A stretch of 64,000 nt of DNA from a virus. Below are positions 2,810 through 48,849 of this stretch, piece after piece (within the stretch, counting starts at the first letter, position 1; each line of letters starts with the position of its first letter). Made by a program: the position numbers and the translations under genes. Under the pieces are notes generated by a model. It worked only from the letters and a program-made list of their open reading frames with translations. It did no database searches and was not told where the DNA came from. Where the stretch lies: positions 1 to 64,000 of IMG/VR virus record IMGVR_UViG_3300045131_001195. One strand, given 5' to 3'.

Positions 2810-3157
2810 ATGAAAATTAATATAAATGATTTAACATTAAATGCTAAATTAGCAATATCCAGAGAAGAGAAAGAAAAGGGGATGATGAATAAAAGATTTG
2901 ATGACACATTTGATGCAATGCTATTCATAATGGACACACCCAGGTCATGTTTCTGGATGAAAAATTGCATTATCTCACTTGATATTATAATGATTCAAGA
3001 TAATGTTATAACAAAAATTCACCACAATTGCCCCCCTTGCTCAACAGAAAAATGTAAAAGATATTGTGGTGATGGTAATTTGGTTCTGGAGGTAGTTGGG
3101 GGCACTTGTGATAAACATAATATTAACGAAGGTGATGTTATAAATCTTAATAACTAG
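2810..3157 (+). CDS. DUF192 family protein
   Basis: A 115-residue protein that spans the DUF192 fold: EKGMMNKR near the N-terminus, then FWMKNCIISLDIIMI, and LEVVGGTCDKHNINEGD at the end. Chromosomal DUF192 proteins are usually exported, but no signal peptide is present here, so it is expected in the cytoplasm. The stretch CPPCSTEKCKRYC, in place of the usual PC...Y region, holds four cysteines, which suggests metal binding or a disulfide (inference). The function of the family is not established. The 3' end overlaps the convergent DHH gene by 11 bases. Confidence 0.85.
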   Translation: MKININDLTLNAKLAISREEKEKGMMNKRFDDTFDAMLFIMDTPRSCFWMKNCIISLDIIMIQDNVITKIHHNCPPCSTEKCKRYCGDGNLVLEVVGGTCDKHNINEGDVINLNN

Positions 3158-4625
3158 AAATCTCCTTCTCTAATTTGGTTTTTATTTTACTTGCAATATC
3201 TTTCATTAATGTCAGATATTGAGTTTCAGTTCTTGGCTCTGATTTGTAGGTGCTTGTTTTTGGTGCATATGTTCTTGGTTCAGTTGATTTTGGTGCATAC
3301 GTTCTTGGTTCTTTTGATGGTGGTCTGCTACCCCTACCAATAAAGTTAAGTCCAGAAATATTTGTAATACTTGGATGACCCCCACTATTTGCTTGAATTA
3401 AATCCCAAGCATTTAGTGCAATACTATCTAATTTCTTTTTCTCCTCTTCAGTTAATTCACCAAACAACTTATCCATAATTCCCTTTAATTCCTCATTTGT
3501 TTTTGGAGCACCTTCTTTTGTATAATATTTATCACCATAAGTGGCATAAAAATCATTAAAGGTAAAACCAACACTTTCTTCTGTTGCTTTTGATTCACTA
3601 ACCCATTTAATTGTTGATAATAAAATTAATTTATCTTCTAACATAGGTTTAAATTGCCCCATAACTTTTTGTGCCAATTCACCTAAATGTAATTTGCTAT
3701 ACTTGGGGTTTGGTTTAAATGGATTTTTTGAAACTTGAATTAATCCTAGTGGCCAGTATATAATTAAGAAATCAGCATCAGGTTGGTTTTTAAATGATGT
3801 ATATCTATCGTATGAACCTGTTCCCTTTAAAGAACCCATACCATATTGGTAAATAATACCATCTTTAAATTCAACATTCTTATGACCCTTCATACTTTCA
3901 ATATACTTTTCAGCATTTGCTTGTAAATCTTCTGGGAGTTCAGTAGTATTTTCTTTCATCCATTTCTTTATATTATTCAATATTGATAAAATGGAAGGTT
4001 TTGAATTCATAACCAAATTTTCAAGAAATCCTTTCTTGTTTTTAAAAGCCAATAGTAATTTATTTGCAACTAAACCCATTAATAATTTATTCTCTCTAAC
4101 ACTTTTTGATTTGTCAAATTTGAATAAATAATTAATAACATCATCTGTAGTTAAACCTTGTCTAACAAAGTCAGCAGAGTCAACTGTATTTATAATTAAA
4201 ATATCAGTATCACTAAACAAATCATTTTTTGAAATAACTTGTGAAATTGTTTCTGCATTCGATCTGGCTTTTTTAAATTGCCCAGATGTTTTCTTGGTAT
4301 CAACCCCAATCTGACTATCATGGTGGTCTGTGTGTATTTTAAACATAGGTTTTCCATGAGCAAAATCCACTAGAACAGGCATAGTGTCTCCTAAGGCATC
4401 ATTCTTCTTTACAGCAAATTCTGTATCTCCGTATTGGATAATATGTGCATCAACAACTTTGATGCCATTATCTTCCAAGTATTTCTTCATGGCCAAAGCC
4501 GAGGCAACTCCATCAAGCCCTTAGAGGTCCTGGTGAAAGTAGATCTCCGCTTTATTATAACGGTTCGCAAGAGCATCAATATCTCTAATTCCACTTTCTA
4601 CCAGGACCTGATTGTTTTTTCTCAT
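3147..4625 (-). CDS. DHH-family phosphoesterase with in-frame stop (recoded or broken)
   Basis: Conceptual gene starting at ATG 4625. Codons 1-34 end in YFHQDL, followed by TAA at 4521-4523, GGG, then CTT GAT GGA and an open frame to 3147. If nine bases are skipped, the product is about 489 residues and shows all DHH motifs: HQDLDGVASA (motif I), VDFAHG (II), TDHHDS (III, the DHH signature), VDSADF (IV) and a C-terminal SGGHPSITNISG like the DHHA1 subdomain. DHH enzymes are Mn-dependent phosphoesterases (RecJ, nanoRNase, cyclic-dinucleotide hydrolases). Starts after the stop (TTG 4496, ATG 4490) would lack motif I and so the metal site. A TATTTATA box lies 17 bases before the ATG. Either recoding or a pseudogene; the downstream frame is long and intact. 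Confidence 0.75.
4515..4610 (-). promoter_or_regulatory. Candidate ribosome-bypass element: hairpin, CTC-TAA-GGG-CTT
   Basis: In sense order: AGGTCCTGGT (4609-4600), a one-base bulge, GAAAGT (4598-4593), a 52-base loop, ACTTTC (4540-4535), ACCAGGACCT (4534-4525), then stop TAA (4523-4521), GGG and CTT (4517-4515). The stem has 10 + 6 perfect pairs and its last pair lies inside the CTC codon (4526-4524). CTC and CTT can be read by one tRNA-Leu with GAG anticodon, so a hop from CTC to CTT would skip the stop and restore DHH motif I. TAAGGG before the landing codon is Shine-Dalgarno-like. By hand count 50 of 110 bases in 4501-4610 are G or C, against 12 of 60 at 3961-4020. Confidence 0.55.
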
Positions 4626-4642
4626 AGTCGTTTATTTTTTAT

Positions 4643-4650
4643 TATAAATA
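4643..4650 (-). promoter_or_regulatory. TATTTATA box before DHH gene
   Basis: The plus strand reads tataaata, so the sense strand of the DHH gene reads TATTTATA, 17 bases before ATG 4625 and just upstream of the end of the HNH gene. This would let the DHH gene be transcribed independently of the endonuclease gene. Candidate only. Confidence 0.5.
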
Positions 4651-4652
4651 GA

Positions 4653-5567
4653 TTAGTTATGCGTTTTTAACACATTTATATACTTTGTTTTTTCAATTAA
4701 TTCATCTAAAGTAATTGAACATTTATCTTGTTTTGATAAATTGTTATGTTGTGTTAGTATTTGTAAGTTTTCCTTGGCACTCAAAATTTCAGGTGGTAAA
4801 TTATTTCTAAACCCTTCTGCTACACTAAATTTATGGTCAATATGATAAGTATTGAAACTTATTTTAAGATTATTAGGATTAATTATATTTTTATATTGTT
4901 TATAGGTTTTTTTAGTCATAGACCTAACTATCCTATAATAATTTTTAATAATTAACATATCTTCCTTTGATAAATTAAGTGCAATTGAATTATAAAAACA
5001 TTTACTGCATATAAATTTTTTATGTTTAGCAACAAAATTAACATATCTTTTATTAGAAATATGCCCATTTTTACACTCAACAACTAATTTACTATTTTTA
5101 CCATCTAATTCTACTAATGATAACAATTTAAAGCCATTTTTATTTACTATTTTTTTTAAAAAAACTTCATTTATTATACTTTGATTCTTTTTTATTTTGA
5201 CATCATCAATTAAAGAGGGGTTTTTAATACCTTTCCATTTTTCAGAATAGATTAATTTTAATTCTTTAACTCTTTCTTCACTATGAAAATCACTCCATTT
5301 TCTATTATCACCAAATCTACCATTACCTTCACCAGAACACTGGCAAGGTCTGCATATTTGTATATTAAAATTATTTTTTACTTTAGTTAAATGATGAGCA
5401 CTTATTGAATGAATTTTACTTGGGGTTTTACATTTTGGATTATCGCAAACCCAGATTACTTTATAAGCAGTAGTCCCTTTTTTATTTGTTAAGTCTTCAA
5501 CTTCAACCATATCATAATAAATTATTTTAGATTTAAAATAAACTGGCTTCCAAATAGATTTAATCAT
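4653..5567 (-). CDS. HNH endonuclease, probable free-standing homing enzyme
   Basis: A 304-residue basic protein. The C-terminal part (about residues 240-290) has YHIDHKFSVAEGF, then NLQILTQHNNLSKQ, the HNH nuclease pattern with a DH pair and the closing N..L...N..K. The middle holds CxxC pairs (CDNPKC, CRPC, CSKC) that could bind zinc and help DNA recognition. The length and build fit phage homing endonucleases that sit between genes. It ends 27 bases before the DHH gene start, next to that gene's interrupted motif. In T4, mobA and the gene 60 bypass sequence form such a mobile pair; the parallel here is inference. The gene is even more AT-rich than its neighbours. Confidence 0.85.
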   Translation of the reverse strand: MIKSIWKPVYFKSKIIYYDMVEVEDLTNKKGTTAYKVIWVCDNPKCKTPSKIHSISAHHLTKVKNNFNIQICRPCQCSGEGNGRFGDNRKWSDFHSEERVKELKLIYSEKWKGIKNPSLIDDVKIKKNQSIINEVFLKKIVNKNGFKLLSLVELDGKNSKLVVECKNGHISNKRYVNFVAKHKKFICSKCFYNSIALNLSKEDMLIIKNYYRIVRSMTKKTYKQYKNIINPNNLKISFNTYHIDHKFSVAEGFRNNLPPEILSAKENLQILTQHNNLSKQDKCSITLDELIEKTKYINVLKTHN

Positions 5568-5603
5568 TTTTCAATAGCCCCTCATTAATTAAATTTCTTC
5601 TCA

Positions 5604-5972
5604 TTATTCTAATGTTAATAAATATTTCATTTTATTTACTTCTGCCAAAATCTCATCTCTGATATTTAACAAATCAGTATCTTCTCCTTGTGTTAATTTT
5701 TCTGACAAACCCATTAAGAACTCTGTGAAATCATCCAGATATTCTTGCATTGAGAAACCCTTTATATCTTCAAACTCCATTGTAAAACCCCCATCATATT
5801 CAGGACGTCCATGTTTACCCATACAAACCTCAACATACTTATCAATCAAATCATCTAAATTATCATAAAATTTACCATATGCTTTATGTTTTGCATATGA
5901 TTTTGTTTGCCAATGCAAGAATCTAAATTGTACTTGTGTATTGACTAACTCTAATATAATCTCATCATTCAT
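5604..5972 (-). CDS. Dps/ferritin-like phage protein (DUF5856-like)
   Basis: A 122-residue, mostly helical protein. LVNTQVQFRFLHWQTKSYAKH followed by FYDNLDDLIDKYVEV resembles the helix-A/helix-B region of Dps-like ferritin-fold proteins, where a His-Trp-x-T and an Asp-x-x-x-Asp/Glu set bind metal. Only about two thirds of the length of a full Dps protein is present. Short versions of this kind are common in large T4-like phages. A role in iron or DNA protection would be inference; no catalytic activity is proven for the phage versions. Confidence 0.7.
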   Translation of the reverse strand: MNDEIILELVNTQVQFRFLHWQTKSYAKHKAYGKFYDNLDDLIDKYVEVCMGKHGRPEYDGGFTMEFEDIKGFSMQEYLDDFTEFLMGLSEKLTQGEDTDLLNIRDEILAEVNKMKYLLTLE

Positions 5973-5990: not shown

Positions 5991-6593
5991 TTAAAGTAGT
6001 TTTATCAACCGTTTTTTTCCACGACCGTTTCTTTCTCTATAATTATCATTAAATGTTTTACTATCCAATTCATATAGAAAACTTTCTTCCATATTAAATA
6101 AAAACTTTTGGTCTCTATGACTGCCACGTGCTAATTTAGAGAAAAATTCCTCTGTTGTATCACTATCTATTTGCATATTTTTATCCCAGCCACTTTTTTT
6201 GAAATTGTTTAAAACTTCACCCATATCTGACATATCATTTGTGCCAATTTCAATAAACTCGTTTTTACTTTTATAGATGACAGAATACTGGTCATAATAT
6301 TCTCCCAAAAAAATTAAATCTTCTTTTCTTATGTTTGGAATAAAAAGTGATTTTTCATTTACCCAATCACCCTCTTCTTTGAAGCCACCATCCATTTCAA
6401 TGTAGCCAATTTTAAGTTTATCTTTGATGAAAGATTTTAACTCTTTATACCTTTCCAAATTTTCATCCATAGATAAATATTTTCTAAATGGCGAAATAAC
6501 TCCAAAAGACGATGAGTCATTCTCAATGTGTTTCCATATTCTTGATAATCTAGTTTCATAGATTATTGCATTTTTTTCTATAATTTCTATCAT
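5991..6593 (-). CDS. Phage protein resembling DUF3293
   Basis: A 200-residue protein with the pattern FGVISPFRKY, then a run of charged helix (ERYKELKSFIKDKLK), GYIEMDGGF, a strand SLFIPNIRKEDL and LGEYYDQYSVIYK. This order (a strand beginning with a conserved fold start, helix, Gly-rich turn, and a Q-x-SVIY strand) resembles small phage and bacterial proteins of the DUF3293 type, whose function is unknown. The C-terminus RERNGRGKKRLIKLL is strongly basic. It lies in an unbroken minus-strand run with the DUF3310 and Dps-like genes. Confidence 0.55.
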   Translation of the reverse strand: MIEIIEKNAIIYETRLSRIWKHIENDSSSFGVISPFRKYLSMDENLERYKELKSFIKDKLKIGYIEMDGGFKEEGDWVNEKSLFIPNIRKEDLIFLGEYYDQYSVIYKSKNEFIEIGTNDMSDMGEVLNNFKKSGWDKNMQIDSDTTEEFFSKLARGSHRDQKFLFNMEESFLYELDSKTFNDNYRERNGRGKKRLIKLL

Positions 6594-44898: not shown

Positions 44899-47800
44899 TT
44901 ATTTTTCTAATACTTCAATCCTTTTTGTTAAATTTTCAATTTGTTTATTCTGTATTTTTATTGCTTCAATTAATATTGCTGTTATTCTTGAATATGAGAC
45001 AGATGCTGGTTTACCTTCATAATCTTTTATTACCACTTGTGGTAGCACTTTATCTACTTCCTCTGCAATTAAACCAATTTCTTTTATAGAATTACCTATT
45101 TTGTTATATTCTACTCCTCTTAATTTTTTCACAATCTCTAAAGGATTACTAATTTCTTCTATATTTTCTTTTACTTTTTCTGTTGATGTTTCTGTTATAG
45201 TTCCTGTAACAGTTAAAACACTACCATCAAAAGTTAAGTTGGCTTCAGCATTTATTGACGTTGATGATACTGAGGTTAATACCCTATTATCAACTGGGTT
45301 TGTATATGATGTTATTCCAGCATTAGAACCACTTGTTCCAGACGAACCACTTGTTCCAGATGCACCTGATGTGCCACTACTTCCTGCTGCACCACTTGTT
45401 CCTGAACTTCCACTTGCACCTGGTGTTCCTGTACCTGAACTATCAATCAAAACTATTGGTGCTGAGTATTCTTCGGTGCAAGTTAATGATCCATAACCAC
45501 CTCCTGCTGCAAGCGCTGCATTCTGTATTCCTGCTCCAGCCAAATTTTGTCTTCCTGTTATCAGTGCACCTCCTGCTGACCATAATGTGCCATTGTATTC
45601 TTCTGTGCAAGATCCTGATGGAGTTCCTCCAAATGCAAGTCCTGCGTTTTGTGTTCCTGCTCCTGCTAATAATCTTCTTGCAACTATTAATACACCACCT
45701 GCTGACCAAGATGTACCATTATATTCTTCTGTGCAAGATAAAGGACCATTACCTCCAAATGCAAGTCCTGCATTCTGTGATCCTGCTCCTGCTAAACCAC
45801 ATCTTGCTGTTGCTAATGCACCTCCTTCTGACCAAGATGTACCATTGTATTCTTCTGTGCAAGACGTTATTGGATAAGTACCTCCTGCTGCAAGCGCTGC
45901 ATTCTGTGTTCCTGCTCCTGCTAAAAATCGTCTTGCTGTTGCTAATGCACCTCCTGCTGACCAAGATGTACCATTATATTCTTCTGTGCAAGAACCATAT
46001 GAACTATGTCCACCAAAAGCAAGTCCTACATTTTGTGTTCCTGCTCCTGCTAAACCACATCTTGCTGTTGCTAATGCACCACCTGTTGACCAAGATGTGC
46101 CATTATATTCTTCAGTGCAAGATACAGGACCAGTACCTCCAAATACAAGTCCTTCATTCTGTGTTCCTGCTCCTGCAAATTGCTGGTTTCCTGTTATCAA
46201 TGCACCCCCTGCTGACCATGAAGCTGCTCCACTATACCCACAATAAGAAACCATTGGCTCTAAATTTACTGTGTCAAACCAAAAACACATTGAATTTGCA
46301 TCTATTGGTGATGGTGTTGATGCTGATGAGGTAATAAAGGCTGATGTTCCACTTGTTCCATTGATACCAAAAAGAATACCACCGCCAAATAATTTTAATA
46401 TGTATGTTGATGTTGGTGCTGGGTTTTCTGAGTCAATTGTTAATTGATTTCCAGCAATGGTATAATCATCACCATATTGTTGTAATTGACCATTAACAAA
46501 GAATAAACTAGCCTCTTGGTCAATTTCTTGAGAAATGGTAAATGTTCTATTTGACCCATTTGTTGCACCTGAAATAGATAATTCTACTATTGATGGACTT
46601 GTTCCACTTGTTCCTGCTGTTCCACTTGTACCTGAACTTCCGCTTGTTCCAGATGAACCACTTGTTCCTGAACTTCCACTTGTTCCTGAACTTCCGCTTG
46701 TTCCAGATGAGCCACTTGTTCCTGAACTTCCACTTGTTCCAGATGAGCCACTTGTTCCATCAGTACCACTTGTTCCAGATGAACCACTTGTTCCTGAACT
46801 TCCGCTTGTTCCAGATGAACCACTTGTACCTGATGAACCGCTTGTTCCAGATGAGCCACTTGTTCCAGATGAGCCACTTGTTCCTGAACTTCCACTTGTT
46901 CCAGATGAGCCACTTGTTCCATCAGTACCACTTGTTCCAGATGAACCACTTGTTCCTGAACTTCCGCTTGTACCTGATGAACCGCTTGTTCCAGATGAGC
47001 CACTTGTTCCAGATGAGCCACTTGTTCCAGATGAGCCACTTGTTCCATCAGTACCACTTGTTCCAGATGAACCACTTGTTCCTGAACTTCCGCTTGTTCC
47101 AGATGAACCACTTGTTCCTGAACTTCCGCTTGTTCCAGATGAACCACTTGTTCCTGAACTTCCGCTTGTTCCAGATGAACCACTTGTACCTGATGAACCG
47201 CTTGTTCCAGATGAGCCACTTGTTCCAGATGAGCCACTTGTTCCTGAACTTCCACTTGTACCTGAACTTCCGCTTGTTCCTGAACTTCCGCTTGTTCCAG
47301 ATGAGCCACTTGTTCCTGATGAGCCACTTGTTCCTGAACTTCCGCTTGTACCTGATGAACCGCTTGTACCTGATGAGCCACTTGTTCCTGAACTTCCACT
47401 TGTTCCTGAACTTCCACTTGTACCTGAACTTCCGCTTGTTCCAGATGAGCCACTTGTACCTGATGAGCCACTTGTTCCTGAACTTCCACTTGTTCCTGAA
47501 CTTCCACTTGTTCCTGAACTTCCACTTGTTCCTGAACTTCCGCTTGTTCCAGATGAGCCACTTGTACCTGATGAGCCACTTGTACCTGATGAGCCACTTG
47601 TTCCTGAACTTCCACTTGTTCCTGAACTTCCACTTGTTCCTGAACTTCCACTTGTTCCTGAACTTCCACTTGTTCCTGAACTTCCGCTTGTTCCAGATGA
47701 ACCACTTGTACCTGATGAACCGCTTGTTCCAGATGAGCCACTTGTACCTGATGAACCACTTGTTCCTGAACTTCCACTTGTTCCAGAACTTCCACTTGTA

Positions 47801-48849
47801 CCTGAACTTCCGCTTGTTCCAGATGAACCGCTTGTTCCAGATGAACCACTTGTTCCTGAACTTCCGCTTGTACCTGAACTTCCACTTGTTCCAGAACTTC
47901 CACTTGTACCTGAACTTCCGCTTGTTCCAGATGAACCGCTTGTTCCAGATGAACCACTTGTTCCTGAACTTCCGCTTGTACCTGATGAACCACTTGTTCC
48001 TGAACTTCCACTTGTTCCAGATGAACCACTTGTTCCTGAACTTCCACTTGTTCCTGAACTTCCACTTGTTCCTGAACTTCCACTTGTTCCTGATGAACCA
48101 CTTGTTCCTGAACTTCCGCTTGTACCTGAACTTCCACTTGTTCCTGAACTTCCACTTGTTCCTGAACTTCCACTTGTTCCTGATGAGCCACTTGTTCCTG
48201 AACTTCCGCTTGTACCTGATGAACCACTTGTACCTGAACTTCCACTTGTTCCTGAACTTCCACTTGTTCCTGATGAGCCACTTGTTCCAGATGAACCACT
48301 TGTTCCTGAACTTCCACTTGTTCCTGAACTTCCACTTGTTCCTGATGAGCCACTTGTTCCTGAACTTCCACTTGTTCCAGATGAGCCACTTGTTCCTGAA
48401 CTTCCGCTTGTTCCAGATGAGCCACTTGTTCCTGATGAACCACTTGTTCCTGAACTTCCGCTTGTTCCATTTTGACCAGCAAGAATATCAAATGTTAATA
48501 AACTACTTCCAATTGTTATCTCATCTGTTGTTGTTAAATAAAATGTTTTACCAGAATATGTTAATCCTGATAATACCAAAACCTCAACACCAGTATAAAC
48601 ATCGTCACTGATATTAAAATCATAATCACGGCTTAATAATTCTGATGTTTCTAATTTGTATATTCCATTATTTTGTGGCGAATTTTGTTGCCACACCAGT
48701 ATTCTATCATTAACATCAATATTAATCCCATCAATTGATGTTGGTGTTGTTGCTCCAGATAGTACTATATGACCTGTTGTTGCAACAATACACGGCCTTT
48801 TCTTCGTTGTTGAAATGGCCTGACCATAAATATTTAATCTAGTTGGCAT
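44899..48849 (-). CDS. Giant repeat-rich tail fibre with endosialidase-type chaperone
   Basis: A 1316-residue protein. Residues 1-130 are a head (MPTRLNIYGQAISTTKKRPC and onward). Residues about 130-750 are a near-perfect GTSGSS repeat with a few GTDGTSGSSG variants. Next is a beta domain shared with the 48991 fibre (SGATNGSNRTFTISQEID), then about six kelch-like blades as in the 38412-41257 genes, a short GSSGTSG spacer, and a C-terminal intramolecular chaperone of the Peptidase_S74 kind (EKVKENIEEI, GLIAEEVDKVLPQVV, YSRITAILIEAI). The chaperone trimerises and then cleaves itself from the fibre in the known family. The long Ser/Thr repeat is an obvious glycosylation candidate. Confidence 0.9.
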   Translation of the reverse strand: MPTRLNIYGQAISTTKKRPCIVATTGHIVLSGATTPTSIDGINIDVNDRILVWQQNSPQNNGIYKLETSELLSRDYDFNISDDVYTGVEVLVLSGLTYSGKTFYLTTTDEITIGSSLLTFDILAGQNGTSGSSGTSGSSGTSGSSGTSGSSGTSGSSGTSGSSGTSGSSGTSGSSGTSGSSGTSGSSGTSGSSGTSGSSGTSGSSGTSGSSGTSGSSGTSGSSGTSGSSGTSGSSGTSGSSGTSGSSGTSGSSGTSGSSGTSGSSGTSGSSGTSGSSGTSGSSGTSGSSGTSGSSGTSGSSGTSGSSGTSGSSGTSGSSGTSGSSGTSGSSGTSGSSGTSGSSGTSGSSGTSGSSGTSGSSGTSGSSGTSGSSGTSGSSGTSGSSGTSGSSGTSGSSGTSGSSGTSGSSGTSGSSGTSGSSGTSGSSGTSGSSGTSGSSGTSGSSGTSGSSGTSGSSGTSGSSGTSGSSGTSGSSGTSGSSGTSGSSGTSGSSGTSGSSGTSGSSGTSGSSGTSGSSGTSGSSGTSGSSGTSGSSGTSGSSGTSGSSGTSGSSGTSGSSGTSGSSGTSGSSGTSGSSGTSGSSGTSGSSGTSGSSGTSGTDGTSGSSGTSGSSGTSGSSGTSGSSGTSGSSGTSGSSGTSGTDGTSGSSGTSGSSGTSGSSGTSGSSGTSGSSGTSGSSGTSGSSGTSGSSGTSGTDGTSGSSGTSGSSGTSGSSGTSGSSGTSGSSGTSGSSGTSGSSGTSGTAGTSGTSPSIVELSISGATNGSNRTFTISQEIDQEASLFFVNGQLQQYGDDYTIAGNQLTIDSENPAPTSTYILKLFGGGILFGINGTSGTSAFITSSASTPSPIDANSMCFWFDTVNLEPMVSYCGYSGAASWSAGGALITGNQQFAGAGTQNEGLVFGGTGPVSCTEEYNGTSWSTGGALATARCGLAGAGTQNVGLAFGGHSSYGSCTEEYNGTSWSAGGALATARRFLAGAGTQNAALAAGGTYPITSCTEEYNGTSWSEGGALATARCGLAGAGSQNAGLAFGGNGPLSCTEEYNGTSWSAGGVLIVARRLLAGAGTQNAGLAFGGTPSGSCTEEYNGTLWSAGGALITGRQNLAGAGIQNAALAAGGGYGSLTCTEEYSAPIVLIDSSGTGTPGASGSSGTSGAAGSSGTSGASGTSGSSGTSGSNAGITSYTNPVDNRVLTSVSSTSINAEANLTFDGSVLTVTGTITETSTEKVKENIEEISNPLEIVKKLRGVEYNKIGNSIKEIGLIAEEVDKVLPQVVIKDYEGKPASVSYSRITAILIEAIKIQNKQIENLTKRIEVLEK
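46601..48472. repeat. About 1.9 kb GTSGSS-coding tandem repeat
   Basis: An 18-bp-unit repeat coding Gly-Thr-Ser-Gly-Ser-Ser, roughly 100 units with small base variants (cttgttcctgaacttcca, cttgttccagatgagcca). Several units code Thr-Asp in place of Ser-Ser. The absence of stop codons in other frames makes long spurious frames on both strands. It is a likely site of slippage and recombination. Confidence 0.95.

Follow-up and report, generated by a model that had tools for sequence, protein, structure and literature searches.

To our knowledge, work on programmed bypassing by the bacterial ribosome has long dealt almost exclusively with gene 60 of bacteriophage T4. In gene 60 the motif KKYK starts at residue 14 and take-off occurs at codon 46, according to the accessible part of a recent paper (PMC11194080), and among T4-like phages the bypass is described, in the literature consulted, as peculiar to gene 60. 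For the upstream HNH nuclease gene mobA one review, available in part, uses the words apparently defective, whereas the accessible text of another has MobA nicking its target and being inherited at high frequency (PMC2988022). Synthetic "stop hops" in E. coli span nine bases with matched codons around a stop and are decoded as one amino acid (Weiss et al. 1987, as cited in PMC5009743). The accessible sections of the latter review, from 2016, give natural in-frame stop hopping as without known occurrence and list Hau3 and Prevotella as further bypassing candidates, while a 2024 paper, in the part available, names gene 60 and the mitochondria of Magnusiomycetes as bypassing cases (PMC11194080). 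The locus described here lies on the IMG/VR virus record IMGVR_UViG_3300045131_001195, of which positions 1 to 64,000 (the window, a portion of the 75.5-kb record) were analysed. It is a gene for a putative DHH-family phosphoesterase with a stop codon inside its catalytic motif I, and it very probably hosts a homing cassette equipped with a programmed ribosomal bypass of its own. The cassette comprises an HNH-like nuclease gene and a recoded version of the 5' end of its target, the DHH gene, at whose start it is situated.

The interrupted DHH gene and its family

On the minus strand of the window, the frame which opens with ATG at 4625 reads 34 codons up to YFHQDL, continues with TAA, GGG, CTT and DGVASALAMK, and stays open until a stop at 3147 (Table 1). 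The original prediction had pointed to this arrangement, with HQDL, TAA, GGG and CTT followed by the DG of motif I, and its coordinates turned out to be right on re-reading. It had also held an ordinary error to be a poor explanation. A sequencing error is indeed unlikely, because an 85.3-kb contig (L002) is identical to the window across 3,600 bp and three other contigs (L005-L007), which are mutually identical and encode a protein 84-85% identical to that of the window, have TGA where the window has TAA.

Among the best 80 of 416 relatives of the DHH body (residues 38 onward) obtained from a viral-contig search, 76 are without a stop in motif I; the four interrupted ones are L002 and L005-L007. 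Two records of uncultured phages also match the DHH body, and the one that was read is uninterrupted. No second DHH copy was found, with a single match in each of the six records searched. The same is true for a second copy of the element in its own record and ten others, where besides the antisense of the element the extra matches had E values of at least 0.29. A tRNA gene was not found in the window, and comparison of the element DNA with phage and plasmid records gave no real match (one match of 28 bases, E 0.07). One otherwise uninterrupted relative, L065, has a stop 5' of motif I that is not present in its sisters L068 and L071 and could be a mutation or an assembly error.

By domain and predicted fold the target can be assigned to the DHH-family phosphoesterases. 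The Pfam DHH model matches ten of ten intact relatives weakly (E up to 0.1, best 2.5e-4; the match shown lies below the gathering score). A predicted model of the protein of L003, an uninterrupted relative (predicted local distance difference test, pLDDT, of 70), gave enzymes such as DhhP, RecJ and a PAP phosphatase among the top Foldseek matches, with E values near 3e-4 to 1e-3 and low template modelling (TM) scores. The DHH body of the window has no significant Pfam match, and a PDB search with a sequence profile found no DHH protein.

The family was collected with a DNA pattern of the 3' arm of an mRNA helix, described below, which required CTN and then T without requiring a stop or a landing codon. 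The pattern gave 48 stretches in viral contigs, and in 48/48 a stop is present at that place. Together with the window these are 49 records representing 24 distinct elements. A looser pattern added L152 (CTT TAA CTT), giving 50 records and 25 distinct elements; the 49 records apart from the window derive from 45 metagenome ids. Looser hop patterns also picked up L090, L091 and L149-L151, as well as L158 and L159 in bacterial genomes, which were discarded as chance matches.

The order CTN, stop and CTN-GAY-GG was found in 49/49 records examined, L152 being a further one. The take-off codon is CTN in all 49, as the search pattern demanded, and a stop directly 3' of it is also found in all 49, where the pattern demanded T as the first base only. 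All three stop codons are used across the elements. The gap is TGA or TAG in 36 records, TGACG in two, TAAGGG or TGAGGG in five, and TGAGGGAA or TGACGGGT in six. The nine-base geometry of a stop hop, that is a gap of 3 nucleotides (nt) between CTN and CTN, is seen in 36 of the 49 records plus L152; the gap of the window has 6 nt. Take-off and landing codon are both CTN in 49/49, with third bases that differ in some (CTT/CTG, CTG/CTT, CTC/CTT, CTT/CTA), and a shift of the peptidyl-tRNA from one CTN to the other would in all variants yield motif I without interruption.

The second part is in frame with the first in 41/49 records, and for these the stop might simply be read through by a near-cognate tRNA, which would add two or three residues to motif I. 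In the remaining eight records it is out of frame past the stop, so that readthrough cannot join the two parts. Readthrough would moreover separate the conserved, metal-binding acidic residues of motif I by additional ones, and it leaves the landing CTN and the use of all three stops unexplained. We therefore regard it as extremely improbable.

The post-hop DHH frames of L118, L127 and L139 have 584-764 residues in comparison to the usual 435-465, and are possible C-terminal fusions.

Selection, landing codon and mRNA helix

The ratio of nonsynonymous to synonymous substitution rates (dN/dS) of the body is 0.049-0.142 at a synonymous rate (dS) of 0.87-1.68 in ten chosen pairs of hop alleles, some with a common member, and 0.032-0.115 in five chosen intact pairs. 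For the out-of-frame pairs L112/L139 and L108/L120 it is 0.088 and 0.142. Judged by these values, the gene 3' of the stop is under purifying selection like its uninterrupted relatives. The bodies are open over at least 360 amino acids in 43/49 records; of the six shorter ones, L140 runs into the end of its contig and the other five belong to one group, the L117 clade.

At residues 1-6 past the landing codon the amino acids are kept (T/A and T/S at two sites) and the codons vary, which leaves D-G-V-[TA]-[TS]-A conserved with many synonymous changes. This conservation has to be considered where termination with downstream re-initiation, and hence two polypeptides, is proposed. A Met codon does stand nine codons past landing in 20 of the 24 alleles examined, and in six alleles codon 7 is TTG or codon 3 is GTG. 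Before codon 7 a start is found only in L120 (the GTG at codon 3) and in none of the other 23 alleles, and the first possible start in L131 and L113 comes at codons 45 and 20. A product from codon 7 or 9 would be without motif I, yet the motif is conserved, and re-initiation is hardly credible.

The 3'-arm pattern left the landing codon free. Nevertheless it is CTN in 25/25 distinct elements (L152 included) versus 6/47 distinct intact relatives (Fisher 5e-14), in which TTG or TTA is preferred at this position. Many alleles show short direct repeats (CTT...CTT) around the gap with the hairpin adjoining, as might be expected if the gap were lost at the RNA level, through excision or through a skip by RNA polymerase, and the ribosome did not hop. 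However, removal at the RNA level needs neither the stop directly after the first codon nor a second CTN in those elements whose third bases differ, and we consider it very unlikely.

The helix upstream of the take-off codon was compared with several controls. Against dinucleotide shuffles the mRNA of the window gives z-scores (z) of -3.7 and -4.3 (0 and 1 of 200 as stable), and against synonymous recoding z is -6.5 (0/300 as stable). In 23 aligned distinct elements bases 81-64 before take-off pair with bases 17-1 in a 17-bp helix. Its cells are paired to 99.2%, compared to 32-47% after a shift of one to three columns, and GC/AU exchange occurs at two of the pairs. In 23/23 elements that keep the arms the helix is far more stable than under synonymous recoding (z -4.7 to -9.7, 0/300 each); for 46 intact relatives the median of the same z is -0.94 and the lowest value -3.46. 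The inverted repeat of the original prediction is real (4525-4534/4600-4609 with 10/10 and 4535-4543/4590-4598 with 8/9 pairs), with the exception that the two pairs reaching into CTC are not conserved, as the helix common to the family ends at pair 4527/4607, the base preceding the take-off codon.

Two apical helices were rejected as weak (67% and 74% of cells paired). An RNA model gives at least 107 bits for the hop elements (including L152, which is outside the model), 80 for the L117 clade, 66.8 for L079 and at most 48.5 for the other intact loci searched. It was not used as proof, since intact relatives also score via the common coding sequence.

The L117 clade (L117, L126, L138, L146 and L147, 5/49 records) speaks for taking the inserts as disabling homing scars in a DHH gene that is dead or dying. 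These records have lost the 5' arm (z -0.86), the DHH body of the four that are long enough is open for 83 codons before an additional in-frame stop, and the uncorrected dN/dS against seven hop alleles is 0.41-0.48, compared to 0.22-0.38 for ten pairs among five of those alleles. The clade is apparently an early pseudogene, given that dN/dS is raised only mildly, and would be a natural mutant that is consistent with a need for the helix without proving it. As an account of the family, a dead gene is contradicted by the 43 long open bodies and their low dN/dS at dS near 1, and we give it very little credit.

In most elements the nascent chain has a basic patch 29-32 residues before take-off. 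Counted from the most upstream in-frame start, the take-off Leu is codon 34-43 in hop alleles (35 or 36 in 18/24), and the corresponding stretch of intact relatives mostly has 31 codons (36/47). With this extension, K or R is found at -32 in 16/25, at -31 in 19/25 and at -29 in 18/25 elements, with Asn at -30 in 15/25. Basic residues are common at N-termini. The four patch positions hold on average 2.2 of them, residues 4-7 of 57 open reading frames (ORFs) of the window 0.5. By analogy with T4 we take the patch, 29-32 residues before take-off, as a lead towards a nascent-chain signal.

Ribosomal bypassing, as originally proposed for the window, is supported at the sequence level by family geometry, selection, reading frames, landing codon and helix. 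The rival named at that time, a fresh disabling insertion, is contradicted because 25 distinct elements in 50 records share the geometry, and because of the low downstream dN/dS, the out-of-frame versions, the landing CTN and the selected helix.

The HNH-like nuclease gene and the proposed cassette

The original prediction was silent on the HNH-like gene upstream, on the cassette junction and on signs of mobility. In a first search, relatives of the ORF at 4653-5567 were found in exactly L002 and L005-L007. Nuclease profiles, which find loci independently of stop and hairpin, reached 15 loci with two rows and 20 with nine rows. All 19 loci with a visible DHH gene have a hop-bearing DHH as the next gene; L104 is cut off before DHH. 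Within the family, an HNH-like nuclease gene lies just 5' of the hop gene in 20/49 records. The C-terminal HxDH...N...K residues of the nuclease, presumably the HNH motif, are invariant in 9/9. Its C-terminal part has weak matches to phage proteins, two of which (H8 and H24) are annotated as HNH endonuclease among the 35 matches listed, and its predicted fold is poor (pLDDT 53).

The window matches L003 from the upstream gene through the ninth DHH codon, up to 5578, where it changes to the nuclease gene. The cassette therefore interrupts the beginning of the resident DHH gene and supplies it with a new, recoded start. The stop of the orphaned start overlaps the nuclease ATG, which suggests coupled translation.

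In the DHH tree, for which the intact rows nearest to the window were used and which carries a long-branch warning for L116 and L127, the window is sister to the uninterrupted L003 (97/86) and L105 to the uninterrupted L079 (98/86). The element of the window is 98% identical to the L005/L082 element, though its DHH sister is L003. The hop label changes five times among 23 hop and 47 intact rows, gains being indistinguishable from losses.

Several further observations were made around the cassette. The nuclease gene of the window is a mosaic in comparison to L005, with a middle part mostly 93-100% identical and ends of about 55-80%. The uninterrupted DHH gene of L079 (1988-2100) has upstream sequence and an arm-like 5' end in common with the hop allele L105 and may be a recent hop loss. 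Just 5' of the nuclease start, L094, L097, L098, L100, L101 and L102 have a TACTTCCATAACGATTTAGATGG-like stretch (YFHNDLDG), possibly a remnant of motif I; in regular-expression form it was found only before the nuclease, in four of the loci searched. L118 and L127, where the HNH-like gene is absent, have ORFs 5' of the hop gene with LAGLIDADG-like stretches, which we take to indicate another kind of homing endonuclease.

Elsewhere in the window, 5991-6593 encodes a protein matching DUF3293 and an S-adenosylmethionine lyase family, a possible counter-defence gene. At 44899-48849 lies an ORF of 1,316 amino acids with an array of about 52 units of a 36-bp repeat and long open frames on the opposite strand.

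Table 1. Positions of the interrupted DHH gene and the proposed cassette in the window
Feature	Position	Strand	Basis or remark
DHH gene, take-off part and body	3147-4625	minus	motif I holds CTC-TAA-GGG-CTT
Putative DHH-family phosphoesterase body 3' of the hop	3147..4514	minus	purifying selection
Proposed landing codon CTT	4515..4517	minus	reading would resume at GAT 4512-4514, the DG of motif I
Proposed bypassed gap TAAGGG, 6 nt	4518..4523	minus	3, 5, 6 or 8 nt in relatives
Stop codon TAA directly 3' of take-off	4521..4523	minus	TGA in L082/L083/L085
Proposed take-off codon CTC (Leu34)	4524..4526	minus	reading frame
3' arm of helix, ends one base before take-off codon	4527..4543	minus	alignment
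5' arm of conserved mRNA helix (17 bp, one bulge)	4590..4607	minus	alignment
Recoded DHH 5' end on the cassette, 34 codons, N-terminal basic patch RKNN	4524..4625	minus	
HNH-like nuclease gene, 304 amino acids, proposed homing endonuclease	4653..5567	minus	relatives and C-terminal motif
Orphaned resident DHH start: 9 codons identical to uninterrupted L003, 5 new codons, stop overlapping nuclease start	5560..5604	minus	
Inferred inserted cassette	4518..5577	minus	left junction with L003 to landing Leu codon

Proposed mechanism and comparison with known systems

The ribosome would read about 34-38 codons until it arrives at the take-off CTN and a stop occupies the A site. The peptidyl-tRNA-Leu would then detach and the mRNA slide, a movement that renewed pairing of the helix behind the ribosome would assist and in which the basic N-terminal patch, lying in the exit tunnel, may also have a part. 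At the landing CTN the tRNA would re-pair, and reading would resume at GAY to give the exact HQDLDG motif. From the T4 precedent we infer that the nuclease cuts and that the insert protects: insert and recoded arm would remove the target site, so that the cassette escapes its own nuclease, and the bypass would keep the DHH enzyme produced despite the cassette.

Some of the data weigh against a bypass-bearing homing cassette. Covariation in the helix is thin, with 11 of 17 pairs invariant and only two having two-sided changes, and shuffles equalled the alignment in two of five measures (155/500 for two-sided pairs and 500/500 for pair types, with 0/500 in each of the remaining three). Synonymous change in the arm is nil in 7/10 pairs, yet 0.13-0.52 in three. 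The low divergence of the element could partly stem from recent homing transfer, the nuclease gene being mosaic. A gap of 3-8 nt is too short for a take-off hairpin that would contain the stop, and in the predicted folds the stop is unpaired. The basic patch is weak in the class with an 8-nt gap (L107, L108, L120). No nuclease was found in 29/49 records, for which up to 4 kb of same-strand sequence 5' of the hop gene was searched (at least 1.5 kb in each), from which it follows that the bypass can outlive the nuclease gene. Finally, no Pfam or NCBIfam model names the nuclease as HNH and no PDB relative was found; one of H8 and H24, the related phage proteins annotated as HNH, is also without a Pfam HNH match. 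The nuclease is called HNH-like for this reason, with the C-terminal motif and the weak phage-protein matches as its basis.

It is likely that these phage elements form a family of portable stop-hop cassettes and are the first natural stop hops, with a hairpin, a patch at the T4 spacing and jumps of 3-8 nt in and out of frame, and that bypassing is a recurrent route by which homing elements sit harmlessly in a catalytic motif. No report on phage elements of this kind was found among the titles listed for the open-access literature, several lists being limited to 15-30 of many more titles and subscription papers and most preprints being outside the search. The family illustrates a way in which a homing element could be lodged at an active-site codon while the gene stays alive. 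What bypassing minimally requires can be tested directly on its 25 natural variants, with three stops, four gap lengths, the arm-less natural mutant L117 and the close uninterrupted relative L079.

With T4 gene 60 and mobA the DHH elements have in common the stop after take-off, the matched codons, the upstream stem and the neighbouring nuclease, at the sequence level. The candidate basic patch of most elements (-32 to -29) would correspond in spacing to KKYK of gene 60, as far as the accessible text gives it (PMC11194080). The gap of gene 60 has, in the sources available in part, 50 nt between GGA and GGA and is out of frame, whereas the DHH elements jump 3-8 nt between Leu codons CTN, both in and out of frame and in a DHH gene. 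The same sources describe for gene 60 a take-off hairpin holding the stop, which the DHH elements do not have. The stop hops of E. coli reporters are artificial, the DHH elements are natural and use CTN/CTN.

Hau3 and Prevotella are likewise proposals of natural bypassing in a phage or a bacterium. The Hau3 candidate is linked, in the accessible text, to a UUA codon and not to a stop and hairpin as in the DHH elements, and unlike these neither it nor the Prevotella candidate is tied there to a nuclease cassette. The byp elements of Magnusiomyces mitochondria resemble the DHH elements in being many short inserts neutralised by bypassing (PMC5009743, in the part available). According to the accessible sections they seem not to depend on mRNA context and to be linked to the decoding of mitochondria, in contrast to the conserved helix and the single target gene in phages seen here. 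The T4-like homing endonucleases of the mob (HNH) and seg (GIY-YIG) type likewise have a free-standing gene near the target, spread by homing and alter the flanks (PMC2988022, accessible part). In contrast to mob and seg, the DHH cassette carries the recoded start of its target gene together with the bypass site.
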